Shown here: positions 14,987 through 57,888 of the stretch, piece by piece | Layout of the letters: the number at the start of each line of letters is the position of its first letter | How positions within the stretch are numbered: the first letter of the stretch is position 1 | Source of the DNA: Urechis unicinctus | Lineage: Eukaryota; Annelida; Polychaeta; Xenopneusta; Urechidae | Direction of reading: 5' to 3' | NCBI GenBank assembly: GCA_034190875.2 | Contig: CM067357.1 | Location: 1,352,693 to 1,416,692 of the forward strand | DNA: 64,000 bases | The notes under the pieces: model-generated | Told to the model about the DNA's origin: nothing | Seen by the model: only the letters and a program-made list of their open reading frames with translations | The model's database searches: none | Made by a program: the position numbers and the translations under genes

Positions 14987-14989
14987 CAG

Positions 14990-32752: not shown

Positions 32753-33183
32753 CCCATGGGTACATCCCCTCTGTGGGTGCGGGGGTAGAATAGGCGCACC
32801 GTATCCTCCTGCATATCGTAAGAGGCGACTAATAGGAGGCAACCTGTTGGCCGTGGGTTGCGAATCGTGTCGGTGGACAATGGGATCCAGGTGGTTGAGT
32901 GGAGTGGTTCTTTTGAGGGCCATATCTGCAACATACCACTCTGGCCCGGATTTCACCTAGACAAGAGGCTGGAATGGCCTGGTCCAGTCAATCGGCTTGT
33001 GGTGACTGGCCCTAGGATAATCGTTTCCATTTTTATCTTTTCCATCTCCATTTTCATTTATCCTAGAAGGCGGCTGCTTAATCAGGTCAATCTTATCTAT
33101 TAACCTTTCTTGGCACCATATAACCCATTAGTGTTGGTGTACCGTTAAACATTATACTTACCTTACCTTACCCATGGGTACAT
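32753..33183 (+). mobile_element. SINE-like element copy 1, full length with 13-bp target duplication
   Basis: The element (32766-33170, 405 bp) is flanked by perfect duplications CCCATGGGTACAT at 32753-32765 and 33171-33183, which proves retroposition. It runs from GTGGGTGCGGGGGTAGAATA through GTTGGCCGTGGGTTGCG, GGTGGTTGAGTGGAG and AAGGCGGCTGCTTAATCAGG to a tail CCGTTAAAC..TTACCTTACC. GGTTGCGACTCG-like and GGTTGAGCGGAGCGG-like stretches resemble Pol III B and A boxes, but their order is not that of a tRNA, so promoter function is uncertain. The last 70-90 bp match the LINE 3' end at 51050-51137. Confidence 0.95.
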
Positions 33184-33920
33184 GGGGAAACTAGGCGAAA
33201 TGATCCAAATAATTGGAATAATTTCAGAATCGGGTCAAAATTTACCATAATCGGCCAAATATTACCCAAGTTATCATAGATTATAATTTATTGTCGACGA
33301 ATGGGGAAACTTTCAATTTCATCAAGTTAACAATTGAGATAGGATTGTATGATATGGATTTTAATTAAATATATACAATAAGATGAATTAGTTAGAAGAC
33401 TAAAAAAGTTAGTAATTTTTTTCGAAGCTGACTAATGTTATAAGAGACAAAAGCTTAAATAATCAGCATTTGTTTATATGATCAATTTTATTTGTTTGGA
33501 GATATAGATGAAGTTGATGTTAGTTGTTTGGCGAAGGTGTAAAACAAAACTTGGGGTTTTGCATGTTGTCAAACAACGTTCATACAAAAAAAATCACAAA
33601 TGTTGAAAATTGTCATTTATTTATTGAAACAATGAAAAGTTAAATGCAATGTTAAGTGATAACAGAAAGTAAGATTCCTTACTGAAAACTGTGATCTAGG
33701 TTGATTACAAATAATAGTTAAACGTGTAACACATAGAGATTGGTGAAGAAAAATAAATGAAAGCAATTATGTAGGTTAACAAAATAACAAACAAAACTAA
33801 TCATGTAATCTAACAAACAAGTAACACTAATTATAAGTTGACAAAATCAACACTAATCATGTAATCTAACAAAACACTAATAATGTAATCTAACAAACAA
33901 GCAACACTAATTTAGCTGGT
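33184..33920. other. AT-rich non-coding
   Basis: Contains short repeated AACAAACAAG/CACTAATNATGTAATC motifs (33780-33910). No gene. Confidence 0.5.
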
Positions 33921-34154
33921 CTAAAATGTGAGAACATTATCGTTGTCAAAACAAGTTATTTTGATAGGTAGGATATCCCGAAGTTGTTCAATAGTACTGA
34001 TATCATTGTCCAAGTAAGTATTGAGATGAGATGTATTAACTTTAACAACTTTATCTTCTTCTTGGATGAGGATTGTCAGGTCCTCGTCCCATTCATCATT
34101 GAATACACCAATGATGGTGTACTCTTGGAGGGTAGGCTGTTGGCTTTCAAGCAC
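33921..34154 (-). CDS. Putative terminal exon, unknown family
   Basis: A strong acceptor (AACCTTTTGTAG) opens a 77-codon minus frame: VLESQQPTLQEYTIIGVFND, then EWDEDLTILIQEEDKVVKV and ending FDNDNVLTF and a stop. The sequence is acidic, with beta-strand-like alternation. It joins in phase 0 to the OB-fold-like exon at 37936-38149 if that exon uses the donor after GGTAAA. In that case the parvovirus-like insertion lies in the intron between them. This gene model is inference; the family is unknown. Confidence 0.4.
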   Translation of the reverse strand: MLESQQPTLQEYTIIGVFNDEWDEDLTILIQEEDKVVKVNTSHLNTYLDNDISTIEQLRDILPIKITCFDNDNVLTF

Positions 34155-34960
34155 CTACAAAAGGTTGCACATAAAGTTGAGAAATGTACTATTTTGTTTA
34201 GGACTGTTAAAATTTCTCTTATGCATGTTCCATGTTTTTAACATGGGAAAGGTTTTGGTGTGTCCACCGCAGATAGTTAAATTTAATGATTGGATGATTT
34301 TAACAACACAGCATTAAAAGTTTGAGTTGTTGCTAGACGTTGATGTGTGAGGTAATAATGAAATGTAGGTATTAGGCGTCCGAATTTTACTAGCTTAATA
34401 TGATTTATAGTGATTCAAAATCATACATTGGAAGTTCTTAATTGATGTGTGCAAACTCTTAAGGGTCGGTGAAGTTAAAGATATATAACTATTATACTGC
34501 CGTACAAACGTGAGGGTGTTGACATATTCATATCAAGAGTGAATTATATCATTAAGGTACCTGTTTGTTTCAATTGCATAATTTGGTTCTCAAATTATGT
34601 TATAATTATGTTTAAATGGTTCTACTTTGATTTTTTTTGCTAATATGTGATAGCAAGTGTATTTATTTTATTCTGATAGTGATTTTTAACAAAGTTGGTA
34701 TGTATGATATTTACACATTTATTTGTTGTGGCTGTGACATGGGGGATTTTAACATGATATTGGGCTGCTAATCTGCTTTTATAACAACTTGTGCAACGGA
34801 AATTACTAGATGGAATGGACAGTTGAAGGTGAAAAGGTGTAAATTAAGTTTTGAGAAACAGCAGAGCTCACAATAGGGTTAATTAAGTGCAAGATATTTT
34901 GACAGGAGATGTTGCAAAGTGGGCATATCCTCGTAATGTTGGGAGCAAGTTTACTTGCAT
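34155..34960. other. Non-coding, nothing recognised
   Basis: AT-rich; no viral terminal repeat or gene was seen next to the parvovirus-like region. Confidence 0.45.
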
Positions 34961-34963
34961 TAA

Positions 34964-36640
34964 TCAATTAAACGTTATGACAATCTCTATCTGTCTCCAA
35001 GCATCGGTTTCCTCCAAGCATCCACCTACTCCCATATGTCCTTGTTGACCCGGTTCATCGTTCTTGCAACCTTCGTAAGTCGTTTCCTTATCTTTCACCG
35101 GGCTCAAGAGTTCCTCCTCAGGTATCTGCTCAAAGTCCGAGTCACTCATTTTATCTTCCTCCTCCTCTTCACTGTTTCCGTCTTGACTGTCGACATCGGC
35201 TAGTAATCTGTCAAGTGCGGCATCTAACTTTTGCTCGTGTTTGTCCGCCGTTTCGTGCATGATCTCGATCCAGGCACGAGGGTGTACATCCTTCTTGCAC
35301 AACTTCAACAACGGACAGTCTCTGTTTAGTATCCAGCGGTATATCCTGGCCTCGATAGCTTTTCTCTGCGCCTGCGCGAAATGCCACAGTGCATTGTTGC
35401 TGGTAATTATCACCGGCGTACGGAACACTTGCTCCTCCTCCTTTCCCTTCTTCTTTACGTACGTCACTCCTCCCTCTAGCAGTATCTTGCACTGCTCTAT
35501 CGCCTCCTGATTGAAGCACGGCTCATCGATGTAGATCAAGTTCCGGTCCAGGGTATTTTCGTACATAATCTGCTATTATCGCCTGCATGAATCTCACCAT
35601 AGTACAACGCGATCTCACGTAGTCCGCGCAAGGCGAAGCTCTTACCAGCATTGGGAGGGCTCTCTATGACGAATGTATTTATCTTTGGCACCCTCTTATT
35701 CAGGACATTGAACAACTCCTGTACGAACTTCTTTTTGCGTATACCATGTTGACTCATCCAGGCGTTAATAATCTTCTTGGACATTGTCACCCCATAGTAC
35801 AACTCTGTTTCTTCTCGGTCGGCTCTTGACTTGACATATTGCTTCTCGAGGGCACTCCATGACATCCGGCACGCTGCAGTCTTGCGCAATAGGAAGGCCT
35901 TTTTACACAGACTGTCGAAGTTAGAATTTGCGTACGTTTGCATCCAATCTTCTGCCTTTTTCCCTGTGAAGCGGTCGCAGTAAGACACTAACCGACTTTG
36001 GGTCTGGACTCTGGACTCTTTTATCAGCTCGAGTAGCTTCAGGAGTGTGAGGGCTTGCTTGCCCATGTTCACTTGCTCTGTCTCCTCCGGTGTTTGACTT
36101 GAGTGGGCCGAGGTACTTTGCTTTGATTCTTTTCTTGTGGTGGGGGGGGGGGGGGGGGGGGTCCCAGCTCTCTCATCCTCTGGTGTAGCTCTGTCATCAA
36201 GGTCGTCCAGTGCTGGTCTGGCGTCGGTGTTATCTTCCTCCACACTTCTCTTGGCGCCTGTTGTAAGTACCTCAACATGCTCCCCGGCATCTTGACAGTA
36301 ATGTATTGTATGTCCCTCGTGTTGCCTGAGAAGGTTACGTACCCGTCCTTTAGCGACTTGTATTTCCTGTCTGCTGTAGGATGGTATGCCGAGCAGAACA
36401 ATGTATGGAAATGGTCGTGCTCTGTCCACGCCTTCCCTGAACAACTTGTATGGTTCGGCGGATGGTACACTACTAGCGCGTTTCTTGACCTTATGAACTC
36501 TATCAGCCTCCGACTTGACTAGTTCGTTTCCGATTTCGGTGTCAGACATCCTCCCTTTTCCGTGTGCTTTAACTCGAATTCGTCAGGAGAATGCCACTGG
36601 TATATGAATACGTATAGCTTGGACTTGGTTCTGTAACATA
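34964..36640 (-). pseudogene. NS1: Endogenous parvovirus-like NS1 (replication initiator/helicase), frameshifted
   Basis: NS1 of parvoviruses nicks the viral origin with an HUH nuclease and unwinds DNA with an SF3 helicase in the nucleus. Here the minus strand shows an N-terminal strand (KLYVFIYQWHSPDEFE) in one frame. A second frame starts at MSDTEIGNEL (36549). An HUH-like motif (HDHFHTLF) with a YLQQAPRE segment where the nicking Tyr is expected lies in a third frame (36470-36160). After a run of 20 C (36161-36142) the frame returns for the helicase head, with Walker A ESPPNAGKS (about 35650). A further frame change near 35550 leads to Walker B LIYIDEP and motif C VIITSNN. The C-terminal part is acidic (EEEEEDKMSDSDFE). 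At least four frame breaks make it non-functional. It resembles invertebrate parvoviruses more than retroelements; the genus is not determined. Confidence 0.85.
36142..36161. repeat. Poly-G run (20) inside NS1
   Basis: An uninterrupted G run (C on the coding strand) encodes a proline string. The reading frame of the surrounding NS1 changes exactly here, so run-length change explains the break. Confidence 0.95.
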
Positions 36641-36681
36641 AAAAAAATGTCTCGCGTATCGTAACAATATATTCAGCAATT
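36641..36681. other. Short NS1-capsid junction
   Basis: Only about 130 bp lie between the capsid stop (36682) and the NS1 ATG used here (36549), and about 40 bp if the upstream NS1 frame is counted. No hairpin of the length expected for a parvovirus terminal repeat is visible. A TTTTTTTTATGTTACAG stretch on the minus strand resembles a splice acceptor. Confidence 0.5.
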
Positions 36682-37539
36682 TTAGTCGCGAGGCACGAGT
36701 CGCCTCATCTTCTTTCTCGGTGGTGGTGGCGGAGTCATCGTGGAAGGGCGGACAAAGGTCGGCGTTACGAATTCCTCTTCTGCCTCGCTTTCTACTTCCC
36801 TTTCCGCTTCCGCCACTGCTGCTTCGACGTCGTCATCGTCTATATTCCCTTGCACGCCTTTCAGTTCCTCTTCCGTCTCTCCTTCTCTTCCGGTGAACTC
36901 TATTCTAGTGACTCCTTGTGCAAACTTGGAATTTCCTTGGAACTTGGAAGCATTTTCCCAGGTGCCTGCATCGTGGTAGCTTATATTATAGCGTCCGTAC
37001 GGTGCCATTTCGTATCTGGTGCCGTCTCCACTTGCTTTTCCGTTCGGACCTGCGTAGTCCGGGAAGCATACTGGCAATGTGCTCCGATTTCCTTCTCCTT
37101 GCGCGATTCCCTCCCACTCCGTATAGTATTCCACCACTATTTCTGCAAACCAGCCCATGTGCGCGTTGTTGTGATCGTTGACCTTTGGTATGCATACGAA
37201 TGCTGCGGGCGGCTTGTGATTGTGGTAGTATTTCTGGCCCGTACTCAAGTGCCGGTACTGCTCGTATTGATTTTTCTTCCTGGTGAACTCGTAGACCCAC
37301 ATCTGCCCTCCGTCCGCAAACTCGGTCGTGGTGGTATTGGTGCCGCTGACGGACTTGACGACATCTCTGTAGTATTTGATATTGTTTATCTTGAATCCGG
37401 CTCCCTTGAGTCGCATCCTGTGGCATTCGGTCATCAAGTTGTGCCATTCCCGACTGCTTATGAGTGACGGGTCCTTGGCGTGGTACGGAATCTTGCACCA
37501 GTTGAACTTCCTGTAGAAGCGATTCGTGACAATACTGAA
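36682..37539 (-). pseudogene. Endogenous parvovirus-like capsid (VP) gene, 5'-truncated
   Basis: The minus frame is open from 37539 with no start of its own. It begins FSIVTNRFYRKFNWCKIPYH and contains SSREWHNLMTECHRM and GAGFKINNIKYYRDV, the part of the parvovirus coat protein that leads from the NPW/W-x-x-L region into the conserved strand-turn. QMWVYEF, YEQYRHLSTG, HKPPAAFVCIPK and AEIVVEYYTEWEG follow. The tail is acidic and then rich in Pro and Lys/Arg (TPPPPPRKKMRRLVPRD). The protein would form the icosahedral shell. The N-terminal part is missing; the frame ends at a TGA close to SINE copy 2. The frame of about 285 codons is otherwise intact, less damaged than NS1. Identification as VP is by pattern and by its place next to NS1. 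Confidence 0.65.
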
Positions 37540-37596
37540 TCAACACTTCGATTGAAAAGTTTTCTAAGGTGGAAGTAGTTTATGAATGTTGTTACC

Positions 37597-37936
37597 TCTT
37601 ATAGGGGACAACCTGTTGGCCGTGGGTTGCGACTCGTGTCGGTGGACAATGGGATCCAGGTGGTTGAGTGGAGTGGTCCTTTTGAGGGCCGTATCTGCAA
37701 CATACCACTCTGGCCCAGATTTCGCCTAGATGAGAGGCTGGAATGACCTGGTCCAGTCAATCGGCTTGTGGTGATTTACCCCAGGATAATCGTTTCCATT
37801 TATATCCTTTTCCATTTCCATTTTTCCTAGAAGGCGGCTGCTTAATCAGGTCAATCTTATCTATTAACCTTTCTTGGCACCATATGACACACTAGTGTTG
37901 GTGTGCCGTTAAACCCTATACTTACCTTACTTTACC
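37597..37936 (+). mobile_element. SINE-like element copy 2, 5'-truncated
   Basis: Starts at ATAGGGGACAACCTGTTGGCC and is otherwise colinear with copy 1 to the CTTACCTTACTTTACC tail. It separates the viral capsid fragment from the OB-fold-like exon, which reads on the other strand. Confidence 0.9.
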
Positions 37937-39196: not shown

Positions 39197-39606
39197 CCCT
39201 GTGTGAGTCCGGGGGAAGAATAGGCCCACTGTATCCTTCTGCATTTCGTAAGAGACAACTGATGGGGGGTGAGCCTCTTAGCCGTGGGTTGTGACTCGTG
39301 TTGGTGGCCAATGGGATCCAGGTGATTGTGTAAATCGGTCCTTGTGAGGGTCAGGTCTGCAACACACTACTTTGGCCCTGATTTCACTTAGATGCACGAC
39401 TGGGATGGCCTGGCCCAGATATTCGGCTGGAGGTGGCTGGTCCTAGGTTGTTTTTGCTTTTTTATCTTTTTCATCACCCTCCACTCTTTTTTCCCATTTC
39501 TCCCAGAAGGCGGCCGATTGATCAGGTCGATCTTATCTTATCTTCTCACCTTTGTAGGCATCATATAACACATTAGTGTTGGTGTGCCGTTAAACCCTAT
39601 ACTTAC
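39197..39606 (+). mobile_element. SINE-like element copy 3, inside an ankyrin exon
   Basis: Full-length but diverged: begins CCCTGTGTGAGTCCGGGGG and ends CCGTTAAACCCTATACTTAC. Antisense to the ankyrin exon. No clear target duplication remains. Confidence 0.9.
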
Positions 39607-39740
39607 CTGAACATGGGCCCCGTACTGCAACAGCATCTCGGCTGTATCTGACTGTTGTTGAGCACAACGTCATGAAGTGATGTGTCGCTGTCCTCAAAAG
39701 GAAACTATGTCATGCCCAAGATCGGCCACTCGCTCACTGT
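39607..39740 (-). pseudogene. Ankyrin-repeat exon, upstream half
   Basis: The minus strand encodes EDSDTSLHDVVLNNS and then, one frame over, DTAEMLLQYGAHVQ, the second half of an ankyrin repeat. One indel lies between. Ankyrin repeats mediate protein binding; the parent gene is unknown. Confidence 0.6.
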
Positions 39741-40260
39741 ACCTGAATATAACGTGGAAATTCAATTTCAAAGAAAAGCAGATCCATGACATGTTTCTTG
39801 TTCTTATAACGACAACAATAATTTATTCACATCTTAAGTAAATGTGTGGAATCATTTTTCTCCTTTGAATCAATAAATGGCGCTAGAATGTGTTGCAAAA
39901 GATTCGCTGGTTTGTTTCAGTGAAACATTATATTTCTTCTGGGCATTTGAGGTCTACCATTGTATTAAAGAAGTGTCTTATGTTAAGATTTTCAACTGTC
40001 AACCATTCTGGGTATCTCTGTGCACGAGAATTGGTGGATCAAATTGTAGTATGCACCTTGATTGCATTTCCATCATCTCATCAGCAATTGTTGGATTTGT
40101 CTTGATAGTCTTGGGATTGAAATCGGTGATATAAAAACCTTACAGTTTTCTTCACACAACTGCATTCATCATACACTTTGCCGATCTTCAATGACAACAA
40201 TTTGGTTAATAGTAAGACCTTGACGTTTTGAACGGTTACAACACATGCACCCTCTTTGTG
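39741..40260. other. Non-coding, nothing recognised
   Basis: Short plus frames of no recognisable kind. Lies between two SINE copies. Confidence 0.4.
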
Positions 40261-40668
40261 TCCGGGGGAAGTATAGGTCCACTGTATCCTACTGCTTGTC
40301 ATAAGAGGAGACTAATAGGAGATAACCTGTTGGCTGTGGATTGCAACTCATGTCGGTGGGCTGTGGGATCCTGATGGTTGAGTGGCTCGGTCCCTGCAAG
40401 GACCATGTCTGCAATATGCAACTTAGACCCGGATTTCACCTAGACGAGAGGCTTCAATGGCCTGGTCCAGTTAATCGGCTGGTGGTGACTTACCCTATGA
40501 TGATCGTTTGCATCTTTATCTTTAACGTCATCTCATATTTGTCTTTTTTTCCCCCTTTATCCTAGTAGGCGGCTGCTTAATCGGGTCGATCTTGTCTATT
40601 TACCTTTCAAGGCGTCATATAACACAAGAGTGTTGGTGTGCCGTTAAACCCTATACTTACCTTACTAT
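40261..40668 (+). mobile_element. SINE-like element copy 4
   Basis: Starts CCTCTTTGTGTCCGGGGGAA and ends CCCTATACTTACCTTACT. Colinear with copy 1 throughout. Confidence 0.9.
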
Positions 40669-41150: not shown

Positions 41151-41249
41151 ACATAATCGCATATATTTTGAATAATAAACGCGAAATATGTCAATACATT
41201 TGTTTACATATATATATGCGCTCAATAACAATAACCCATCACACACATT

Positions 41250-41627
41250 GTGGGTCCGGGTGTAGAATAAGTCCACTGTATCCTCCTGCATGACGTAAGA
41301 GGCGACTAATAGTGGGCAACCTGTTGGCCGTGGGTTGCGTCTTGTGTCGGTGGACAATGGGATCCAAGTGGTTAAGTGGAGCTGTTCTTTTTTTGGCCAT
41401 ATCTGCAACGCACCACTCTGGCCCGGATTTCGCCTAGATGAGATGCTGGCATGGCCTGGTTCAGTCAATCTCCCTGGGATAATTGTTTCCATTTTTATCT
41501 TTTCCATCTCCATTTTCATTTATTATAGAAGGAGGCTTCTTAATGAGGTCAATCTTATCTATTAAGCTTTCATGGCACCACATAACACATGAGTGTTGGT
41601 GTGCCGTTTACCCCTTTACTTACCGTA
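41250..41627 (+). mobile_element. SINE-like element copy 5
   Basis: TGTGGGTCCGGGTGTAGAAT to CCGTTTACCCCTTTACTTACC. A shortened middle section. Confidence 0.9.
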
Positions 41628-41716
41628 CCTTCAGCTCCATATCGCAGCAGTAACTTCACGGCAGCAGTATGGTGATGCAGATCATCCAGGTGGAATAATG
41701 TCTTATGCTCTCTGAA
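41628..41716 (-). pseudogene. Ankyrin-repeat fragment between two SINEs
   Basis: The minus strand encodes EHKTLFHLDDLHHHTAAVK and LLLRYGAEG. It is a paralogue of the repeat at 39050-39196 (HKTPFHLAVLNHDTVAVK). Only about 89 bp remain, with SINE sequence directly on both sides. Confidence 0.65.
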
Positions 41717-42195
41717 GATCCAGGGGAAGAAAAGGTCCTATGTATCTTTCTGCATGTCATAAGAGGCGACTAACAGGGAGCAACCTGTTAGCCGTGACTC
41801 GTGTCAGTGGACAAAGCGATCCAGGTGGTTGAGCAGAGCGTTCCTTTTGAGGGCCGTATCTTCAACACACTACTCTTCCACAGATTTCGCCATCGCTGTG
41901 CTCTCATTTGTTGAAATTGGAAGATAATATGTGATTGACGCTCTGTGGTCGATGGCAGAATACAGACTTCTGTGATTAATTAGAATTATTTTCTTGGGAC
42001 TTGGTTTGCTGCTCTGTCCTTCAGTGGGTCCAATGGGAACCTTCCTGTGTGTTGAGAAATTGGTGGTTTGATATCTGGCTCTGTTTGTTGGATCGACAGC
42101 TGAGCTGATCTTTAGCTTCATATATCAGCTGTTTGATTATGGGCATCATATAAAACATTACTGTTGGTGTGCTGTTAAAGCCTATACTTACCTTA
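41717..42195 (+). mobile_element. SINE-like copy 6, split
   Basis: 5' part at 41720-41890 (AAGATCCAGGGGAAGAAAAG.., TAAGAGGCGACTAACAGGG). Unrelated sequence of about 230 bp follows, and then the 3' end at 42140-42195 (GGGCATCATATAAAACATTA.., CCTATACTTACC). This is a replaced or recombined middle. Confidence 0.75.
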
Positions 42196-42330: not shown

Positions 42331-43318
42331 TGTAGGCCGCTTGTTTTGGAGTTATCCTGCTCACTCACTCACTGGGGATTTGAGCACACCAACGACAATG
42401 GTAAAAAAAAGTCATCATTTAAAATGATTTTGGCATATTAAATAAAGGGACCGGATCTTTCTCTGGCAGAGATCTCGGACTTGGCTCACCATCCCCTTTA
42501 ATGGAATTTGAATTGTTTTAAACATTTACAGGCCTAAGCCTGCTGTGGGGTTGGCTAAAAGGCAATCCCACAAGGCCAACTGACCCAATTATACTCCCAA
42601 GCGCAAAAATACTCTACTCAATTATAATACGTTAACCTCTTTTACAAAATCAAAAATTAATATAGCCTTCTACAAGTTACTTGAAAAACATATCAAGTAT
42701 GAGATGACGCATGAAGTATGAAGTGAAAGGATTACATCCATACAGGGTGCGTGATGAAATTGACCAGGATATTTTTATCTTTGGCTCCATATTCTTCTGT
42801 GCATCTTCATCAACATCGATTTCCCTTTTTTTTCTAGTGCGTTTATTTTTAAGGTGTCTGTAAAATAAGGTTACGTTTATCTCAACATCTTAGCATATAG
42901 CTCCTCTAAAAAGACAAAAAGCGACTACGTCACAGGCAATCAAATAGTTAATACAGGTCAATGGTAAACTGTCAAGTTTTCAATAACTAATATAAGAGTT
43001 ATAAAATGAAATAGACGTGTCGTCGTCTGTCATCTGCTTGTGTGACTTACCGCCACTTTGATATACATGCACTTATACAGACTGACAAGACGCGCAGCTA
43101 CCTGAGAAGAGTCCGCACCTTGCCAGAGAGAGGTGACTTGATGTGCTGTTTACGAGTAACTTATCCACTTGTATTTCAAACCTCTGGCTGATATATCGAG
43201 CTTCTTCTTCACTCAGCGCCTCTTAATGGCCAAGGTTCACATGCCTCAGGTTGTTATCAGGTGACAGGAGTTCAACCACGTCGCGTTGGTATCCCCAGAC
43301 ATGTCTTCAGAGGCAAGT
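42331..43318. other. Non-coding, nothing firm
   Basis: Includes a passage with AGGCCTAAGCCTGCTGTGGG and CCCACAAGGCCAACTGACCC (42530-42590) that could be the edge of another retroelement. Not identified. Confidence 0.35.
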
Positions 43319-43727
43319 TATAGGGGGCAACCTGTTGGCCATGAGTTGCTACTCGTGTCAATGGACACGGGATTTATGTGGAGAGAGGCCCTTTTTAGGG
43401 CCATGTCTGCAACACAGAGCTATCTGGCTTGGATTTCCCCAAGACGAGGGATAGAAATTACCTGGTCCAATCAATCGGCTTGTGGTGAAATAATATGTGC
43501 ATTTTTATATTTGACATCATCATCCACTTGTATCTCCCTTTTTATTCCATTTGCCTTAGAAGGCGACTGCTTAATCAGGTAAATCGTATCTATTCATCTT
43601 TGTAGGCCCCACATAACACATCAGTGTCGTGGACAATGGGAATATGAGGTCCTTTTGTGGGCCATATGTGCAACACACCACATTGACACGTATTTCATCC
43701 AGACGAGAGACTGGAATGACCTGGTCC
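43319..43727 (+). mobile_element. SINE-like copy 7 plus an adjoining internal fragment
   Basis: 43319-43626 is truncated at both ends (TAGGGGGCAACCTGTTGGCC to ACATAACACATCAGTGT). It is directly followed by a second piece from the middle of the element (GTGGACAATGGG to GACCTGGTCCAT, 43627-43727). Confidence 0.8.
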
Positions 43728-44130: not shown

Positions 44131-44179
44131 GTCTCTTTCTGTTGACCTACCTCGTTATTGTGATATATTATCGTTGATT

Positions 44180-46009: not shown

Positions 46010-47254
46010 ATGTCTATTTCTCCTCCTGGCCAGAAAAGGAAGCACACTGAAGAAAATGATTTGAATCAAATAGAAAATTGGCAAAGATTTCTTATACTTG
46101 AAAGGACCGACGGAAGTTTAGAGAAAGTTTCATTCATTGTTCTATTTAAAGGAATTTGTGGTATTGCGGGCACCCCAAAAACTTTAAAACTTTTGCGATC
46201 TGGGCTTTACCTTGTAGAAACTTCAAAACAAATTCATTCCAAACTTCTTCTCCAAACCACTAAAATAGCAAATATCAATGTAAAATTCAGCCCTCATCGA
46301 ACCCTTAACACCATCAAGGGTGTTATAAAATCTTTCGAACTCAAATATTGCAGCGAAGAAGAAATTTTGGAGGAATTGAAAAATCAAAATGTAAGTGAAG
46401 TAGCCAAAGTGCTCATTAATAAAAATGGAGAAAAAATTCCCACAGGCACCCACATCCTTACTTTCAACACCCCTTACCTTCCAAACAACATTAAAATAGC
46501 TGGCCTGAACATCAAAACTGAACCATTTATTCCAAATCCTTTAAGATGCCACAACTGTCAAAGATATGGCCATTTTAAAACCAAATGTAATAGAACACCA
46601 ATCTGCCCCAAATGCGGTGATGAGCACGGGGAGCAGGATTGCAAGGCACCATTCAAGTGCGCAAACTGCTCCGGTGCTCATCCCGCATACTCTAAACGTT
46701 GTCCAATTTGGCAAATCGAAAAACAAATTCAAACACTACTTATCACCCAAAAACTTCCTTTTCCTGAAGCGAGAAAAATAGTAGAGTGCCAAAATTCAAC
46801 TTCTTCCAGACCTTCATATGCTAGTACTGCAGCAGCACCAACTAAAATAACCAAATCTATTAGTACACAAACAGAAAACTACCCTCCGAAACTACCCCCT
46901 TTCAAAGCCAGCAATCCCCCAACAGAACAACAAACAAAACCAAACACTCCCACTACCCCAAAAGTCAATGAACACATAACAACAAACAAATACAATGAGA
47001 AATCTAAACTCCCACGGTCAATCAAATCCAAACTCACCAGGGTTCAGAACCCAGATTCTTTTGTTGGGCCCAACATCTATGGCCCATTGTCTGCCATGGA
47101 GACTGATGAGGTCCCCCATGGCAGACACACATCATCAGGGGCCAATCGGGACCCTGGGTCTGTAGTGGCCCAGGGAACCTGCGGCCCTAGGAATGCCATG
47201 GGGACTGAGGTCCACCATGGCAGCAAACGTCCCGCCAAACCCCCTGATAGGTAA
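46010..47254 (+). CDS. LINE ORF1 (nucleic-acid-binding protein)
   Basis: ORF1 proteins bind LINE RNA and act as chaperones in the ribonucleoprotein. I chose the ATG at 46010 (MSISPPGQKRKHTEEN), which gives 414 residues; the open frame upstream belongs to the leader. An RRM-like N-terminal part (SLEKVSFIVLFKG, SGLYLVETSKQIHSKLLL) is followed by three CCHC-type knuckles at about residues 180-232 (CHNCQRYGHFKTKC, CPKCGDEHGEQDC, CANCSGAHPAYSKRC). The C-terminal half is polar and rich in Pro, Thr and Asn. The frame is intact. Its TAA overlaps the ORF2 ATG in TAATG. Confidence 0.9.
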   Translation: MSISPPGQKRKHTEENDLNQIENWQRFLILERTDGSLEKVSFIVLFKGICGIAGTPKTLKLLRSGLYLVETSKQIHSKLLLQTTKIANINVKFSPHRTLNTIKGVIKSFELKYCSEEEILEELKNQNVSEVAKVLINKNGEKIPTGTHILTFNTPYLPNNIKIAGLNIKTEPFIPNPLRCHNCQRYGHFKTKCNRTPICPKCGDEHGEQDCKAPFKCANCSGAHPAYSKRCPIWQIEKQIQTLLITQKLPFPEARKIVECQNSTSSRPSYASTAAAPTKITKSISTQTENYPPKLPPFKASNPPTEQQTKPNTPTTPKVNEHITTNKYNEKSKLPRSIKSKLTRVQNPDSFVGPNIYGPLSAMETDEVPHGRHTSSGANRDPGSVVAQGTCGPRNAMGTEVHHGSKRPAKPPDR

Positions 47255-50200
47255 TGGCGGGCATTATACAATGGAATTGCCGAGGACTTCGGAATAATCA
47301 TGAAGAACTTCTTACTTTACTCAACAAAAATAATGGTATTGCAGCCTGCCTTCAGGAAACATTTCTGAAGGCAGAAAATAAATATAGCTTGAAAGGCTAT
47401 AAATCTTACCATAAATTTGGAGGCACTGGGGAACGAGCTTCTGGCGGCTCGTCCATTTTAATCAAGGATTTTATTCCCCAGAAAGAAATAGAACTCAATA
47501 CAAACCTTCAAGCAGTAGCAGTAAATATTACCTTAAATAAGTCCATCACACTTTGCTCCCTTTACTTACCGCCGCCAAGCCGAAATTTTACGCGGGGAGA
47601 ACTGGACAACATCGTGGCCCAGTTGCCAGAGCCAGTTCTCCTCATGGGTGATTTTAATGCCCACAACTCTTTATGGGGCAATACATATGATGATGGAAAA
47701 GGCCAAATTGTAGAAGATTTCTTCATTTCTCACAATCTCTGCCTTTTAAATGACGGCTCAAATACATACATCCATCCAGGCTATGGCACACCCACCGCAA
47801 TAGATCTTTCTTTCTCTTCTCCTTCTTTGTTTCTCGACCTTGCATGGGAAGTTGGTGTCGATGATACCTGTGGAAGTGACCACTTCCCCATTCTTATCCA
47901 CCTAAACCCTCCGTTACCACCAGAGTCACCTCCAAAGTGGCAGCTGCATAAAGCAGACTGGCCCTCCTTTGGATCTCTGTGTGGGGAGGCTATCCACAGG
48001 GATAAGATGCAAGGGCGAGATACACACATCGATACATTTTGTGCTAAACTGCTTGAAATTGCCTCCAAAACTATTCCGAAGTCCTCGGCAAAGCCCAGGC
48101 GCATCCCAAAACCATGGTTTAACCAAGACTGCCAGGACGCCATCAACCACAGAAAAAGGGCCCTTAATTTTTTTCAAACTCACCCAACCCATGCAAACCT
48201 GGCATCATTCAGGGCAGCGAGAGCGAGAGCTCGGCGGGTCGTTAAAGAAAGTAAAAAGAATTCATGGAAAACTTATATATCAAAATTAAACTCGAAAACA
48301 TCAATCAAAAAGACATGGGAAATGGTCCGCAAAATAAGTGGAAAAAACACCTCTTCCACTTCTTCTTACCTTCTAACACCAGATGGTAATGAAGTAAAAA
48401 ACAAACAAGAAATATCTAACATCATAGCGGACACAATAACCATGAATTCTTCCACTGCTAATTATACTGAAAAGTTTCAAAGACATAAACAGATAACTGA
48501 AAGAACAAAACTTAATTTTAGGTCAAACAACGAAGAAAATTATAATGTTCCTTTTACTGTAGAAGAATTGAAAGAATCTTTGAAACTCTGCAAGGACACT
48601 GCAGTAGGACCAGACGATGTTCATTACCAATTTCTTAAACATCTTCCAGAAGAGTCCTTGTATGTCTTATTAGACATATACAATCACATATGGAGCAGTG
48701 GAGAATATCCGGACTCATGGAGAGAGGCTACCATCATCCCTCTCCCAAAGTCCGGAAAAGACCCAACCAACCCGTCGAGCTACAGGCCCATCGCTCTCAC
48801 GAGCTGTCTCTGTAAAACCATGGAGCGAATCGTTAACAAGCGTCTTATGTGGTACTTGGAAACTAATAATATAATAAATGAACATCAATCTGGCTTTAGA
48901 AAAGGCCGATGTACCACAGACAACCTTGTTAAGTTAGAGTCTTATATTAGGGATGCATTTTTAAGGGGGACCATGTCGTGTCTGTGTTTTTCGATCTTGA
49001 GAAAGCATATGACACGACATGGAAATATGGGATTTTAAAAGATCTACAAGAAGCTGGTCTTCGAGGTAATATGCCACTATTTATACAAAATTTTTTAAAT
49101 GATAGATTTTTTAAGGTAAGAATTGGGACATCACTTTCGGACCAACATGGTCAGGTAATGGTGGTCCCACAGGGCAGCATTCTTTCTGTCACACTTTTCA
49201 ATTTAAAGATCAATAGCATCACAAAAGTTCTTAAACCTGAAATAGAAAAATCACTTTATGTAGACGATTTCCTTATATCTTACCGATCCAGCAGTATGAC
49301 CACCATAGAACGCCAGCTACAAATCAACCTTAACAAAATTCAGAAATGGGCAGATGAAAATGGTTTCAAATTTTCCACTACAAAAACAGTTTGTGTACAT
49401 TTTTGTCAAAGAAGGGGCCTTCACCCTGACCCAGAATTAACCATAAATGAAAATCCCGTCCCTGTTGTGGAAGAAACCAAATTCTTAGGTATCATATTTG
49501 ATTCAAAACTTAATTTTAAATCCCATATTAATTACATCAGGAATAAATGTCTCAAGGCAATGAATCTTCGTAAAGTAGTGTCCAAGCTGGACTGGGGAGC
49601 TGACAGGCAGGTCCTGCTCAGGCTCTACCGGTCCTTGATAAGATCAAAGCTTGACTATGGCTGCATCGTTTACGGTGCAGCTCAAAAATCTTATCTAAAA
49701 CGACTGGACATAGTCCAGAATCAGGCTCTGAGGATTTGCCTTGGGGCATTTCGAACATCACCCATTGAAAGCCTCCACACTGAAGCCAATGAAATGCCTA
49801 TCCATCTAAGAAGAAACAAACTGGCCCTTCAATATGCAATTAAAATAAAAAGCAATCCAGATCACCCTGCCTATGACATTATCTTCCATCCCAAATACCA
49901 AGTAATATATGAAACTAAACCTAATGCCATACCACCTCTTGGGCATCCGTATTCAAGAATCGCTAAACAACATATCCAATAATTTAGACATTATTGCTCC
50001 AAACAAAATTCCCGAAACACCACCCTGGCAATTGAACACACCAACAATAGACACATCCCTTACCAAATATGATAAATTAAATGCAAATGACCTCTTGATG
50101 AAATTTCATGAAATAAAAGAACATCACAAAGACAAGATACTTATTTATACTGATGGATCCAAAGATGCAAACCGTGTGGGCGCTGGAGTCGTGTTCGGAC

Positions 50201-50939
50201 CTCAGACCCACAAGGAAAGACTGCCTGGTGCAGCATCTGTTTTTACAGCTGAAGTTACCGCAATAAGGATGGCATTGTGCCTTATTGCTCACCATCCCAA
50301 TGCGGATTTTACAATTTTTAGTGATTCTTTATCTGCCCTGGAGGCAATTGGGAATAAGTTGTTATCGTGCCATATTGTTGTAGATATTTTAGAAAATCTT
50401 ACTCGTTTATCCATGCTGGGAAAAAATGTTGAGTTTGTCTGGGTACCCAGTCACATAGGTATCCCAGGCAACGAAAGAGCCGATAGGACTGCAAAGGAAG
50501 CCCTACATGAGCCAGTGTCTGAAACCAAGATTCCCTTTACAGACTTAAAACCGCAGGTCGTTAAACTTTTTAAACAAAAAAATGGCAGGACCAGTGGGAT
50601 GAATCCATTCCAAACAAACTTTACGAAATCCAGCCTCAACTTGGGGAGTGGCCACACAGCTGCAGAGAGAGCCGAAGAGAAGAGGTCGTTCTTGCTCGCG
50701 CTCGTATAGGACACACCTATACAACTCATGCCTTTCTACTAAGGGATGAGCCCATCCCTGAATGTATTTCTTGTCAATGTGCCTATACTGTCAAGCACAT
50801 TCTCATCGAATGTGCTGATTTGATTTTGATCCGAAATCGCTTCTTCCGGGTTCAAACCCTTTCAGAATTGTTTGAAAGGGTGAATCCATCCAAGATACTT
50901 GGATTCATAAGAGAAATTGGACTTTTCTATAGATTTTAG
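47254..50939 (+). pseudogene. LINE ORF2: endonuclease, reverse transcriptase, RNase H (three frameshifts)
   Basis: ORF2 nicks target DNA and copies the LINE RNA there. The EEP nuclease comes first (WNCRGLRNN, QETFL, GDFNAHNSLWG, GSDHFPI). RT motifs follow: SYRPIALTSCLCKTMERI, FRKGRCTTDN, then after a frame change near 48972 FFDLEKAYDTTW, VPQGSILSVTLFN and the catalytic LYVDDFLIS. A second break lies near 49980. The RNase H has its acidic residues in YTDGSKDA, FTAEVTAIRMAL, FSDSLSAL and GIPGNERADRTAKEA. A third break is at a run of seven A (about 50575). The tail has a Cys/His motif (CISCQC, VKHILIEC) and ends at 50939. All breaks lie at or near simple runs, so the copy may be young or contain sequencing errors. 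Confidence 0.9.
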
Positions 50940-51137
50940 ACCATGCAATTCTCAAAATATTATATATAATTCAATTAATATAATTCAATTAATACTAATG
51001 GGTTTAATTCTTAGTTTTAACCCTTGATTCCTTCTTATCCTTTCGTACTCGTATTTACCCCTCCTTAAGTAGGCACCATATAACACACTAGTGTTGGTGT
51101 GCCGTTAAACCCTATACTTACCTTACCTTACCTTACC

Positions 51138-51660
51138 TGCAGTTTCTATGCAACCCTGTGGATTTATGGTCTTCATGCATCGTACATATTTCTCGGCCTA
51201 CAACTGCCCTGCTGTCGATCAGCAAGTAGGGCAATACAGAGCCATCTGTTTCTCGCATTTGTTTCCGGGAATTCAAAGATTTGTGCCGTACTGCCATTTA
51301 CACAGATGATTGCAAAGAAAGAGAAGAGAGTTCTAAGCCTTATGGAATTATTTCAAAGGGTTGATCCGTGGGGAACTAACACCGAAATGGTTGACACATT
51401 GCTGTCGGCCAGTAAGAAGGGCTATACAGAGCAATCTGTTTCTCGCATTGGTTTCCTTGAATTCAAAGATTCGTAGCGTACTGCCATTTACACACATGGT
51501 TGCAAAGAAAGAGACGGCGTTCCAAGCTTTTGGAATTATTTCAGAGGGTTGATTCATTGAAGTTCTTTACATGCACTAAAGAAATCGATTTTATATAATA
51601 AGAATGATGCTACTGAATATCTCAAGTTTTGGTGTGCCAAAAAACCCTATACTTACCTTA
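51138..51660. repeat. Tandem pair of about 190-bp segments
   Basis: CTGCTGTCGATCAGCAAGTA.. (51209-51365) and CTGCTGTCGGCCAGTAAGAA.. (51400-51550) are two copies of one segment (ATCTGTTTCTCGCATT, TACTGCCATTTACAC, TTATTTCANAGGGTTGAT). Another pair is at 55050-55400. Frames on either strand are open but not recognisable. Confidence 0.75.
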
Positions 51661-52084
51661 TTTTTCCGATAACGTCCTTCACAGGTGCTTACGTTGTATT
51701 GTCAGACACTGGGCTGATTCTTCACGCTACTTGAATATGTACTTGAGATCGATGCGTGCCGCAGCATTTTGGAAAGTTGCCCCCTTTCTGTGTATACCTT
51801 GACTTAGTTTCGCATAGGGCTTTTCAATGCTTTCTAAATTACGAGTTTGGCCAAGCAGTGGTATTATCTGTCTTGTTGTAATAATCGGATCGCAGTTGAG
51901 TTAGATACAATATTTTCAATGAATAATTAAAACTTGGTTGATTACACCCGAGTTCGATTAGTTTCGTTATGCTGAAGAGGCCTAGTGTTGTAACTCTGTC
52001 ACTGGATGGGTGAGTGATGAAGTTGAGAGGAGCTCCTCTTTAATACGTATCTTCCTTGGACACCTTTAATGTCAGACGTAAAAC
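51661..52084. repeat. Duplicated segment including exon-like copy 2
   Basis: 51661-51795 is related to 42196-42330. The whole region 51560-51900 is nearly identical to 55408-55755. Non-coding as it stands. Confidence 0.7.
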
Positions 52085-52378
52085 ATCGTGTTGGTGGACA
52101 ATGAGGTCCCGGTTATTTAGTGCGGTCATTGTGAAGGCCCGGATTTTACCTAGAAGAGAGGCTGGAACGACCTGGTCCAGTCAATCGGCTGGTGGTGACC
52201 CTGAATAATGTGTGTTTCTGTTCACCTTCATTAGCATCGATTTCAGTATCACCCTCTCCCCCGTCTTATTTATCCTAAAAGGAGGCTGCCTAATTAGGTC
52301 AGTCTTGTCCATACATCTTTGTAGGAACCATATTACACATTCGTGTTTGTGTGGCATTAAACCCTAAACACTTTATTA
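52085..52378 (+). mobile_element. SINE-like copy 8, truncated and diverged
   Basis: TGTTGGTGGACAATGAGGTC through GACCTGGTCCAGTCAATCGG to TGTGGCATTAAACCCTAAAC. Confidence 0.8.
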
Positions 52379-52487
52379 CTGGAGGCCATTACATAGCGTA
52401 ATCCACGTGAAGTTTGCAGTTTAAGTCTTATTCTTTGTTATTGAATATTGGTTTGTTCCTGTGGGTTTCCAGCCATTTCTGGATATC

Positions 52488-52795
52488 CGTAGGGGGCAAT
52501 CTGTTTGCTGCGGGTTACGACTCGTGTCGGTGGACAATTGGAGAGGTCCTTATGGGGGCTGTATCGGCAACACACCACTTTGACCTGGACTTCAAATAGA
52601 CGAGAGGCTGGAATGGCCTGGTTCAGTCAATCGGCTTGTGGCGACTTGGCCAAGGATAATCGTTTCCATTTCCTTTTTCATTTATCTTAGAAGGCGGCTG
52701 CTTAATCAGGTCAAACTTATCTATTAATCTTTCTAGGCGCCATATAACACATGCGTGTTGGTGTGCCGGTTTTAAACCCTATTCTCTCTCACTCA
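52488..52795 (+). mobile_element. SINE-like copy 9, 5'-truncated
   Basis: GTAGGGGGCAATCTGTTTGC to CCGGTTTTAAACCCTATTCTC with a TCTCTCACTCA tail, a variant of the CTTACC tail. Confidence 0.85.
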
Positions 52796-53744: not shown

Positions 53745-54181
53745 TGGGTCCGGGGTAGCATAGGCGTTCACGAGCATCATGCACCTGCATGCTGTAAGAT
53801 TCGACTAATAGGGGGCAAACAACTGTTGGCCGTGGGTTGCGAAAGTGTCGGAGGAAGATGGGATCCTGGTGGAAGATAAGAGCAATCGTTGCGATCTATA
53901 TCCTTGCACTTTACATACTTTGGCCCGGATTTCGCCTAGCGAGAGGGTGGGTTGGCCTGGCCCATTCCTATCGGCTGGGACGTCGTGCCCTGGGACTACC
54001 CATCACATGCATTTGGCATCTTCCTTCATGACATTCATTTACTTCATGGACCATGTTCTCATTTCATTGGCTTCACTAGTCCCAGAAGGCGGCTGCTTAA
54101 TCAGGTCAATCGGATTCCATTAGGTGGTGTTATGGTGCGCCTCTACGTCTCAGCACTTGTGTGTCTGGCTCTATGGGTAAC
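53745..54181 (+). mobile_element. LINE 5' leader starting with the SINE-like head
   Basis: Begins TTGGGTCCGGGGTAGCATAG, like the SINE-like elements. It passes through GGCCCGGATTTCGCCTAG and GGCGGCTGCTTAATCAGG, then continues GGATTCCATTAGGTGGTGTT and ATGGTGCGCCTCTACG as in the LINE leader at 45815-45850. It shows that the head of the SINE-like elements is the start of the LINE. Confidence 0.75.
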
Positions 54182-55140
54182 GTGAAGTAAGGAAGTTTTT
54201 CCTGTGGACGAGTCCTTATATGGGTCATCCCCTCATTATAGTTTGCTGTAGGGTCTTTAGTGTGTGGTCAGCTTTATTTGTTGTTGCACATTTAGCAGTC
54301 TCTCTTCATTACTCTGGGGTAATTAGCCGTGTGTATGACTTCCAGTTTCTTTTACAATGTCTTCCTCTCTGCTTATACGTGGATAGGCACGACTGAGTTT
54401 ATCTGCGAGATTCATATCTTTTCCTTGTTTGTACACCACTATGACGTCATAGTGCTTGAAAGAACCGACGGGAGTTTAGAGAAAGTTTCATTCATTGATT
54501 TAAACCGTTTGGGGTTCTGTCCCGGCACTCAGAAAAATGCTAAAACTAATGCGATTTCCTTTACAATTTGCTTCATACCTTTCATTCTAAACTTTTGTTC
54601 AGTGCTCTTAGCGAATATCAATGTATCAAGGAATACATACAGGGATGAGCCTCTTGAAGCCTGCTAATGTTTTCACTGCATTAGGCACATACCCATTCCT
54701 CCTTCTGACACATCCTGCTTTTTCCCATTTTGTCTTAGAGGCTGCTGCTTAATCTTTCAGAATTATTCACCTTGGTGGGCACCACATAACATTCATTAGT
54801 GTTTGCGTGCTGTTGAGTAACCCTTAGTCCTTACCATTCTATTTTGTTATCGCTGACATCCAGTTGATACTAACACGTATTTTGTCCAGCTCAGCTGACA
54901 GCTGCGATGACAGGACTTCCATCAACCATGTGCAGTACATAATTTGTTGAGTGTTGAGTCCCCTTGGGCGTCTGGTGCTGCGTGGGGTACATCTTAGATG
55001 TTTGGGCTTCACCAGAGTAGCACCACGTGACGGCCTAAAGTGGTACTGCTGTCGATCAACAAGTGGGCAATACAGAGCCTCTGTTTCTCGACATTGGTTT
55101 CCATCTCTTCCTTCCTATTCTCTCCTCGACAAAAATTTGT
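54182..55140. repeat. In-order patchwork of sequences from 44.66-46.26 kb and 51.2-51.3 kb
   Basis: Short patches (about 8-270 bp) alternate between two sources that each keep their own order. For example, the gypsy fragment to TATGACGTCATAG switches to LINE ORF1 sequence (CTTGAAAGAACCGACGGGAG.., 54463-54500), then returns to the gypsy fragment (CCGTTTGGGGTTCTGT). At 55030-55140 patches of 45.43-45.54 kb alternate with 51.2-51.3 kb. No intact gene. Confidence 0.75.
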
Positions 55141-55839
55141 GCCGTACTGCCATTTACACAGATGATTGCAAAGAAAGAGAAGAGAGTTCTGTGCCTTATG
55201 GAATTATTTCAAAGGGTCGTCCATGGGGAACGGCCTACAACTGCCCTGCTGTCGATCAGTAAGTAGGGCTATACAGAGCCATCTGTTTCTCGCATTGGTT
55301 TCTTGGGAATTCAAAGATTTGTGGCGTACTGCCATTTACACACATGGTTGCAAAGAAAGAGACGGCGTTCCAAGCTTTTGGAATTATTTCAGAGGGTTGA
55401 TTCATTGAAGTTCTTTACATGCACTAAAGAAATCGATTTTATATAATAAGAATGATGCTACTGAATATCTCAAGTGTTGGTGTGCCAAAAAACCCTATAC
55501 TTACCTTATTTTTCCGATAACGTCCTTCACAGGTGCTTACGTTGTATTGTCAGACACTGGGCTGATTCTTCACGCTACTTGAATATGTACTTGAGATCGA
55601 TGCGTGCCGCGGCATTTTGGAAAGTTGCCCCCTTTCTGTGTATACCTTGACTTAGTTTCGCATAGGGCTTTTCAATGTTTTCTAGAATTACGAGTTTGGC
55701 CAAGCAGTGGTATTATCTGTCTTTGTTGTAATAATCGGATCGCAGTTGAGTTAGATGCATATTTGTCAGACGTAACATCGTTAGTTTCGTTATGGACAAT
55801 AGAGTTGTAACGCAGGATGGTTTGAGTGCGGGAGCTCCT
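55141..55839. repeat. Near-identical copy of 51280-51950
   Basis: Includes ACATGCACTAAAGAAATCG and AATATCTCAAGTGTTGGTG in both. Exon-like copy 3 lies at 55505-55640. Confidence 0.8.
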
Positions 55840-56108
55840 CATTGTGAGGGCCATATCTGCTACATGCAGCTTTGCCCCGGATTTTACCTAGAAGAGAGGC
55901 TGGAACGACCTGGTCCAGTCAATCGGCATGTGGTGACCCTGAATAATGTGTGTTTCTGTTCACCTTCATTAGCATCGATTTCAGTATCACCCTCTCCCCC
56001 GTCTTATTTATCCTAAAAGGAGGCTGCCTAATTAGGTCAGTCTTGTCCATACATCTTTGTAGGAACCATATTACACATTCGTGTTTGTGTGGCATTAAAC
56101 CCTAAACA
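55840..56108 (+). mobile_element. SINE-like copy 10 (partner of copy 8)
   Basis: Nearly identical to copy 8 from GATTTTACCTAGAAGAGAGG to TGGCATTAAACCCTAAACAC. Confidence 0.8.
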
Positions 56109-56227
56109 CTTTATTACTGGAGGCCATTACATGGCGTAATCCACGTGAAGTTTGCAGTTTAAATCTTATTCTTTGTTATTGAATATTGGTTTGTTCCTGT
56201 GGGTTTCCAGCTATGTCTGGTTATCCG

Positions 56228-56497
56228 TAGGGTGCATTCTGTTTGCTGCGGGTTACGACTCGTGTCGGTGGACAATTGGAGAGGTCCTTATGGGGCCGTA
56301 TCGGCAACACACCACTTTGACCTTGACTTCAAATAGACGAGAGGCTGGAATAGCCTGGTTCAGTCAATCGGCTTGTGATAATCGTTTCCATTTTCTTTTT
56401 CATTTATCTTAGAAGGCGGCTGCTTAATCAGGTCAATCTTATCCACCATATAATACATGAGTGTTGGTGTGCAGTTACACCCTGTACTTACCTCACC
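56228..56497 (+). mobile_element. SINE-like copy 11 (partner of copy 9)
   Basis: GTAGGGTGCATTCTGTTTGC to GTTACACCCTGTACTTACC. Confidence 0.8.
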
Positions 56498-56904
56498 TTC
56501 CTGAATCACACGGCATATGGCAGCCGGTGTGTAGTCATAACACCTCAGGCTCATTCAAATACCTAATTAATTACAATGCGAATAAACGAACAATATCAAA
56601 CCGAACTCAGAGTTCAGTTTTCGGCATTGCTTTTGATTCTGCATTTGTCCATTTCTTGAAGAGTGCGATCACGGAACGGCGGCGTTTGTGAGAGATAAAT
56701 AATCCATAAACTGATACCATCTGACATGTTTGTTGTCTTGATTAAGGCAAGAAGAAGACTAAATAGCCGCTGTGCAAGAAAGCGTCAATCCATGTAAAAG
56801 AATTAAGTGAATCAAACGTGCAGCAGTTTATCGTTGCGTTGTATTTTGACCGAATAGATCCAGACTCAGTTAATGAGAATGTTAGTCTTTTTCTCCCCAT
56901 CCTC
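56498..56904. other. Unassigned sequence between repeats
   Basis: No gene recognised and no match to other parts of the window seen. Confidence 0.4.
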
Positions 56905-57465
56905 GACGAGTCCGCCAGCTACAAATCAACCTTAAAAAAATCAGAAATGGGCAGATGAAAATGGTTTTTCCAAACAAAAACATTTTCCACAACAAAAACA
57001 GACCCAGAACTACATTTTGTCACAGAAGGGGCCTTCACCCTGACCCAGAACTAATCAGAAACCAAATTCTTAGGTATCATATTTGATTCAAAACTTAACT
57101 TTAAATCCCATATTAATTACATAAGGAAGAAATGCCTCAAGGCAATGAATCTTCTAAAAGTAGTGTCCAAGCTGGACTGGGGAGCTGACAGGCAGGTCCT
57201 GCTCAGGCTCTACCGGTCCTTAATAAGATCAAAGCTTGACTGTGGCTGCATCGTTTACGGTGCAGCCCGAAAGTCTTATCTAAAACGACTGGACATAGTC
57301 CAGAATCAGGCACTGAGGATTTGCCTTGGAGCATTTCGAACCTCACCCATTGAAAGCCTCCACATTGAAGCCAATGAAATAAACTGGCCCTTCAATATGC
57401 AGAAAAAATAAAAAGCAATCCAGACCACTCTGCCTATGACATTATCTTCCAACCCAAATACCAAC

Positions 57466-57888
57466 ATTATACGAAATTAATCCCCATGTGGGTGCGGGGG
57501 TAGAATAGGCCCACTGTATCCTCCTGCATGTCGTAAGAGGCGACTAATAGGGGGTAACCTGTTGGCCGTGGGTTGCAACTCGTGTCGGTGGACAATGGGC
57601 TCCTTGTGGTTGAGCGGAGCGGTCCTTTTGAGAACCATATCTTCAATATGCCACTCAGGCCCGGATTTCACCTAGATGAGAGGCTGGAATGGCCTTGTTC
57701 AGTCAATCGGCTGGTAGCCCTAGGATAATCGTTTCCATTTTTATCTTTTCCATCTCCATTTTCATTTATCCTAGAAGGCGGCTGCTTAATCAGGTCAATC
57801 TCATCTATTAACCTTTCTTGGCACCATATAACACATACGTGCTGGTGTGCCGTTAAACCCTATTCTCACTCACTCATTATACGAAATT
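57466..57888 (+). mobile_element. SINE-like copy 12, nested in the LINE, with 13-bp target duplication
   Basis: The element 57479-57875 is flanked by ATTATACGAAATT at 57466-57478 and 57876-57888, inside LINE sequence. It begins AATCCCCATGTGGGTGCGGGG and ends CCCTATTCTCACTCACTC. It is among the best-preserved copies and younger than the LINE fragment. Confidence 0.95.

Follow-up and report, generated by a model that had tools for sequence, protein, structure and literature searches.

The window analysed here covers 64,000 nt of the genome of Urechis unicinctus (C16:1352693-1416692 of the 1.19-Gb, 926-contig genome; positions below are those within the window) and contains two kinds of repeats that resemble each other at both ends, a short interspersed element (SINE) of ~400 nt, of which BLASTN within the window identifies about a dozen copies or pieces, and a long interspersed element (LINE) encoding an APE endonuclease, a reverse transcriptase (RT) and an RNase H. 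The question raised by this locus is from where such a SINE has its ends. Our answer is that the family is very probably a short internally deleted element (SIDE) with a single origin, in which a LINE leader and the terminal ~65 nt of a LINE came together, a template jump being the most likely route. The copies and pieces of the SINE and of the resident LINE family, LINE-B, are the following.

32753–32765, plus strand: left target site duplication (TSD) CCCATGGGTACAT of the SINE at 32766, read directly and by script; repeated at 33171–33183
32766–33170, plus strand: full-length SINE with a (CTTAC)n tail (BLASTN span 32764–33170; TSD script)
37598–37936, plus strand: SINE, 5'-truncated, 91% to the copy at 32766 (BLASTN)
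39197–39608, plus strand: SINE, old copy, 78% (BLASTN)
40250–40665, plus strand: SINE, 79% (BLASTN)
41249–41631, plus strand: SINE, 84% (BLASTN)
41710–41891, plus strand: SINE, 5' part only (BLASTN)
43289–43627, plus strand: old SINE copy without its extreme 3' end, 71% (BLASTN)
52136–52362, plus strand: partial SINE, with a duplicate at 55842–56100 (BLASTN)
52490–52785, plus strand: partial SINE, with a related copy at 56228–56499 (BLASTN)
57480–57869, plus strand: SINE with a (CTCA)n tail and TSD CATTATACGAAATT, lying within LINE copy 2, in its 3' half (BLASTN, TSD script)
17554–17688, minus strand: SINE fragment (BLASTN)
45566–51137, plus strand: LINE-B copy 1, 5'-truncated (first ~115 nt of the leader gone), frame of open reading frame (ORF) 2 broken
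46010–47254, plus strand: ORF1 of the LINE, containing CCHC-type knuckles recognised by eye (the Pfam matches all fall short of the cut-off)
47254–50939, plus strand: LINE ORF2 in pieces, with endonuclease, RT and RNase H
51072–51137, plus strand: LINE 3' end common to the SINE, with hairpin GGCACC..GGTGTGCC (by eye), TTAAACCC and a (CTTAC)n tail
53745–54625, plus strand: diverged LINE-B 5' fragment with the full head (locus L030)
56913–58939, plus strand: LINE-B copy 2, 3' half, interrupted by the SINE at 57480–57869

BLASTN comparisons within the window revealed that the SINE and the LINE share their ends beyond chance. The 5' part of the full-length SINE matches the diverged LINE fragment (32774–32997 against 53745–53976, 74%, E 7e-28), as does a short block further in (33061–33092 against 54080–54111, 97%, E 2e-9), and LINE copy 1 matches the same part at 45570–45698 (82%, E 4e-31) and 45782–45813 (97%, E 2e-9), while the 3' end of the SINE (33112–33172) matches 51072–51132 (92%, E 1e-19). 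The first ~325 nt of the SINE are collinear with the leader of the APE-RT-RNaseH LINE, the last ~65 nt and the tail correspond to the LINE 3' end, and the element of ~390–415 nt passes straight from leader to 3' end with no coding region. The leader pieces are separated by a pyrimidine-rich stretch that varies in length; 33018–33060 and 45699–45781 differ in both sequence and length. A first-pass annotation, made from the letters of the window, had described ~400-bp elements that share their 5' part with the LINE leader and look like the LINE without its coding part, the plan of RIME relative to ingi; this layout is what the BLASTN matches and the genome-wide copies display, the shared 5' part measuring ~325 nt. 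The shared 3' end, given as 70–90 bp, is shorter, ~61–66 nt plus the tail, and the region 45566–45815, described as LINE leader, does match the SINE but belongs to a 5'-truncated copy without the first ~115 nt, so that among the LINE pieces in the window the full head is found only in the decayed fragment at 53745.

A genome search with the head pattern gave 3,592 matches at up to two mismatches, compared to one for the reversed control. Twenty of these, all on contig C1, were taken for inspection and 18 proved to be SINEs or SINE-like (L013, L016 and L021 are decayed and L016 ends after the leader), the other two being LINEs. TSDs of 12–15 nt with at most one mismatch were found in 10 of 25 near-full SINE copies, at seven distinct sites (cut-off at least 12 nt; L015_1990 by eye; the non-adjoining matches of L018 and L019 excluded), and with these TSDs and the 3' tail the ~400-nt elements have moved by retrotransposition.

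To locate the 5' end of the LINE itself a LINE-B leader probe was used, yielding 275 candidates in the host genome; 40 were scored, all of which matched, and 30 were cut out as loci. In 23 of the 30 the start C(3+)TGTGGG lies at the same base (29 loci by script, L030 read directly), representing 21 sites as L035/L036 and L038/L039 have common flanks. The remaining seven comprise two heads with an altered start (L051, L055), the diverged window fragment (L030) and four truncated loci (L031, L045, which is LINE copy 1 of the window, L053 and L056). The 3' windows were taken for 14 of the 23 head-starting copies; the LINE 3' motif was absent from six of these and found in eight, and exact TSDs of at least 12 nt surround the ~5.66-kb element in six of these eight, the TSD of L059 extending into tail-like letters. 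A second family, LINE-A (L011 and L022), also begins with the head; L011 is complete from head to tail with the TSD CCCATCTGAATC, while L022 has no clear TSD. Because of the common start base and the TSDs around whole copies of ~5.66 kb the LINE begins with the head, with no SINE inserted upstream, and the head of the SINE is the LINE's own 5' end. L033 carries, just before the C-run, a partial repeat of where the head begins (GGGTCCGGGGGTAGAATA followed by CCCCCCTGTGGGTCC), a possible 5' template jump.

A tree was built from 34 leaders, 21 from SINEs, two from LINE-A, ten from LINE-B and, as outgroup, one from a LINE on another scaffold, leaving out four of the 25 near-full SINEs as duplicates or too degraded. 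The SINE leaders form a single clade (support 86/93). The end of the leader together with the linker that follows it in the SINE was found at 2,592 places at up to three mismatches and the reversed pattern at none. Since this junction recurs and the SINE leaders form one clade, the family likely stems from one founder, itself likely derived from a relative that predates the LINE families in the sample. The first-pass annotation had taken the resident LINE as the parent, a proposal that does not hold, as the average identity between SINE and LINE-B leaders is 91.5% in the first 115 alignment columns and falls to 64% in the last 119, and as the tree places the SINE clade, with weak support, outside LINE-A and LINE-B.

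Several observations weigh against the SIDE reading. The position of the SINE clade outside LINE-A and LINE-B is weakly supported (63/89), in the last third of the leader the SINE is no more than 71% like LINE-A and 64% like LINE-B, and none of the families sampled turned out to be the immediate parent LINE. The SINE linker of ~19 nt (TTATCTATTAACCTTTCTT) has no clear source, and two of the eight LINE copies with a readable 3' end, L037 and L046, have no TSD. Among the tails of the 25 SINE copies 11 are (CTCA)n and most others (CTTAC)n-like, whereas all eight LINE-B tails read are (CTTAC)n, and a second helper LINE may therefore be involved.

According to the SIDE reading the founder would have formed during target-primed reverse transcription, most likely through a template jump that connected a LINE 5' leader with the final ~65 nt of such a LINE. 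When comparing L011 with the window LINE, identity is 41–68% over most of the body but climbs through 86% and 95% to 100% over the last ~580 nt, and L022 is 92–93% identical over the last ~470 nt; taken together, the LINE-A bodies are 41–72% like LINE-B and the last ~500 nt 86–100%, a comparison based on these two copies. At the other end, L011 has two differences from the LINE-B copy L042 in the first 150 nt. The near-identity of the AT-rich 3' untranslated region suggests exchange by template jumping, while selection could hold the head. Judged by these alignments, the ends of LINE-A and LINE-B have likely been exchanged between the families, and the SINE may have arisen by the same kind of end exchange. 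An internal deletion of one genomic LINE copy is a possible though less likely route to the founder: Persaeus in Lepidoptera has short direct repeats at the ends of the deletion, the authors of its description also discussing template jumps (PMC6740152), and nothing decisive speaks against a deletion here, but the linker without clear source and the LINE-A copies with LINE-B-like ends suggest joins of different LINE RNAs.

When 7,997 candidates were scored in a protein search with the LINE, 426 relatives passed E ≤ 0.001, and the one ranked first by score is 54% identical. Neither the head nor relatives of the LINE were found in viral contigs, and in prokaryote genome contigs the head has a single exact match, L001. 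The scaffold concerned (L001/L075, G001:C4:518800-526800) is filed as Solemya velum gill symbiont but probably carries animal (host) DNA, and it holds a LINE with the head, an open ORF1 and an open ORF2 frame of 1,238 codons. Over 122 aa its ORF1 shares 38% identity with LINE-A, and its ORF2 is 48% identical to the window LINE; the first 120 nt are 77–88% identical, the leader matches again just before ORF1, and the 3' plan is alike by eye, with hairpin, TTAAACCC and pentamer tail. As a LINE with so distant an ORF1 has the same head, the head was in the LINE group before the SINE. That the LINE instead took its leader from an already existing SINE appears improbable. It would fit with the SINE junctions (2,592 at up to three mismatches) far exceeding a LINE-only motif before ORF1 (269 exact matches genome-wide, control none), though the stringencies differ, and with a SINE clade beside and not inside LINE-A and LINE-B; the capture must however predate the split from the L001/L075 LINE, and the whole SINE leader of ~325 nt, not merely the short head, is LINE leader.

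Neither does the head resemble a small-RNA gene. No match to tRNA, 5S, signal recognition particle (SRP) or hepatitis delta virus (HDV) families at the Rfam gathering score and no tRNA by ARAGORN were found in the window, and in the leader of the LINE-A copy L011 Rfam gave none of these four up to E 10, the sole match being SraC_RyeA (E 8.7). The A and B boxes of RNA polymerase III (Pol III) score 12–13 out of 18 in four heads, which 40–85% of 500 shuffles reach and which is the level of chance, and all 25 near-full SINEs contain a sense run of at least four T, which by the known rules of Pol III termination would argue for RNA polymerase II (Pol II) as in the LINE. These results agree with the prediction that the head lacks tRNA similarity. 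A highly diverged tRNA-type Pol III promoter, making this an ordinary tRNA SINE, is very improbable: by eye, GGTTGCGACTC is like a B box into which one base has been added, but the boxes score as shuffles do, no tRNA is detected by ARAGORN in the window or by Rfam in the L011 leader, and the T-runs would stop Pol III in all 25 near-full copies. A candidate HDV-like ribozyme in the head was rejected, as covariance models gave no match in the L011 leader (up to E 10) or the window (gathering score) and a hand-drawn P1, CCCCCT/AGGGGG, leaves an over-long inner part.

That a SINE merely inserted upstream of the two window LINE copies, an impression given by the window alone where one decayed LINE fragment has the head and copy 1 lacks it, is already refuted by the 23 of 30 leaders with a common start and the TSDs in six of eight copies, and the full-length LINE with a different leader that the first-pass annotation would have taken as counter-evidence failed to appear among the genome-wide copies.

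The edges of the variable stretch within the leader can pair in both elements and form a putative stem, S1, with the following arms.

33012–33020, plus strand: S1 5' arm CTAGGATAA, SINE
33058–33066, plus strand: S1 3' arm TTATCCTAG, SINE
45693–45701, plus strand: S1 5' arm CTGGGACTA, LINE-B
45779–45787, plus strand: S1 3' arm TAGTCCCAG, LINE-B

In a covariation test with 15 hand-chosen sequences and 500 shuffles, 97.1% of the S1 cells are paired compared to 91.1% in the shuffles and 12 cells carry double changes compared to 4.0, none of the 500 shuffles being as high in either measure, and the score of 0.216 falls to at most 0.067 when the stem is slid. A conserved leader stem is thus fairly supported. 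On the other side, the numbers of pairs with double change (238/500) and of pair types (167/500) are not above those of the shuffles, the changes amount to a small number of inherited events, and when the longest pairing was searched for blindly S1 was chosen in 9 of 14 SINEs, one of two LINE-A and one of 30 LINE-B, an equally long pairing containing G-U being found in 27 of the 30 LINE-B. Helices drawn by eye within the first 115 nt are not claimed, their covariation score being reached by 63 of 500 shuffles. Just after S1 the SINE departs from the LINE sequence. Before ORF1 the LINE has another stem, seen by eye only (CACTGGTG/CACCAGTG in LINE-A and CACCTGTG/CACAGGTG in LINE-B, where the alignment missed its 5' arm), which is absent from the SINE, as if it might serve translation. 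A conserved block with an apparently covarying stem (TTGGGCTC..GGGTGGGGAGCAC), which the SINE lacks, was noted by eye shortly before the LINE ORF1 at about 6986–7078 of L011 (minus strand), 1655–1735 of L042 and 7410–7515 of L001.

When analysing the rest of the window, a segmental duplication was identified flanking LINE copy 1 (45300–45557 against 54902–55138 and 51138–52437 against 55130–56175); its duplicate at 54902–55330 was considered as the empty site of LINE copy 1 and dropped, as the flanks do not abut cleanly. A parvovirus-like remnant (34964–37546, minus strand) with a helicase-type ORF, a Walker A motif SPPNAGKS by eye, a Pfam PPV_E1_C match below cut-off and a poly-G run near 36145 adjoins the SINE at 37598–37936. 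Two C2H2 zinc-finger genes, each with 84-bp repeats, face each other in inverted orientation at 14074–15538 and 60021–61287, and pol pieces of a long terminal repeat (LTR) retrotransposon lie at 27729–29694 (minus strand; integrase core below the Pfam cut-off, RT and RNase H by eye).

In SINEs with a tRNA, 7SL or 5S head a LINE-derived 3' tail gives recognition by the RT, as the kept LINE 3' end would do here; unlike in these, the head is a LINE leader with no small-RNA gene similarity detected. RIME relates to ingi (as in TSIDER1/SIDER) as the SINE to the LINE, with a common conserved 5' module, and the ingi group has RNase H like the LINE partner described here, while the 3' ends of RIME and ingi are poly(A) compared to a hairpin and pentamer tail in Urechis. 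Abalone and bivalve SINEs may have a similar GGTAGAATAGG...TAAGAGGCGACTAA head; in the literature searched, no title retrieved for SIDEs or for LINE-derived SINEs and molluscs was a relevant mollusc report, and three sequence words of the head had no match in the text. With 5' and 3' ends homologous to those of a LINE, no coding region, TSDs and a tail, the SINE is a real new SIDE, with animal precedents in Persaeus/Zenon and the R2 SIDEs of Drosophila.

Among non-LTR retrotransposons SIDEs are regarded as rare (PMC6740152); they are described in Drosophila (PMC3414825), Lepidoptera (PMC6740152) and trypanosomes (PMC3820030, PMC4035085), with Ag-Sponge of Anopheles and TbRIME also named (PMC6740152). 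The plan, called unusual for an animal SINE in the first-pass annotation, is so when set against tRNA, 7SL and 5S SINEs, but it is published for insects as SIDEs (PMC6740152, PMC3414825). Persaeus/Zenon likewise join LINE 5' and 3' ends into noncoding elements of high copy number with an unrelated bit between; there, however, the partner is a CR1 LINE, at least four origins are reported compared to one likely here, and an AGGCC repeat flanks the deletion whereas no such repeat is established here (PMC6740152). In RIME/ingi the Pr77 module is both promoter and HDV-like ribozyme (PMC8190864, PMC4035085), unlike here where no HDV match was obtained. The R2 SIDE and the R2/R1 hybrid SIDE of Drosophila also join a 5' module to a 3' end, the hybrid indicating that the ends of two LINEs can combine, but the R2 SIDEs are rDNA-specific and rare with a ribozyme head, compared to dispersed elements in thousands of copies here (PMC3414825).

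To the observed architecture, common 5' terminus, TSDs and one recurring leader-linker junction, the following working of the SINE would correspond. Transcription would begin in the kept leader, probably through an internal start by Pol II like that of the LINE. The LINE RT would recognise the RNA by the retained 3' hairpin, TTAAACCC and the tail, and would copy the SINE in trans. The surprising part is the strength with which the 115-nt head is conserved. Tentatively, and with some doubt, the first ~115 nt could be a portable 5' module, acting as internal Pol II promoter and/or as RNA structure for processing, packaging or completion of the 5' end, near letter-for-letter constant while the ORF1 proteins of the LINEs diverge to 38–44% identity, and, like the 3' ends, swapped or homogenised among LINE families when templates are jumped; module and 3' hairpin would then be the complete cis requirement for movement and the SINE nature's minimal construct. 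The family has thousands of copies, and its LINE partner with RNase H is, judged by its domains, of a type unlike CR1 and R2. A LINE and a SIDE with the same precise 5' terminus constitute a natural experiment defining minimal 5' and 3' signals of a LINE, and a head more conserved than the proteins is a concrete target for learning how LINE RNAs start.

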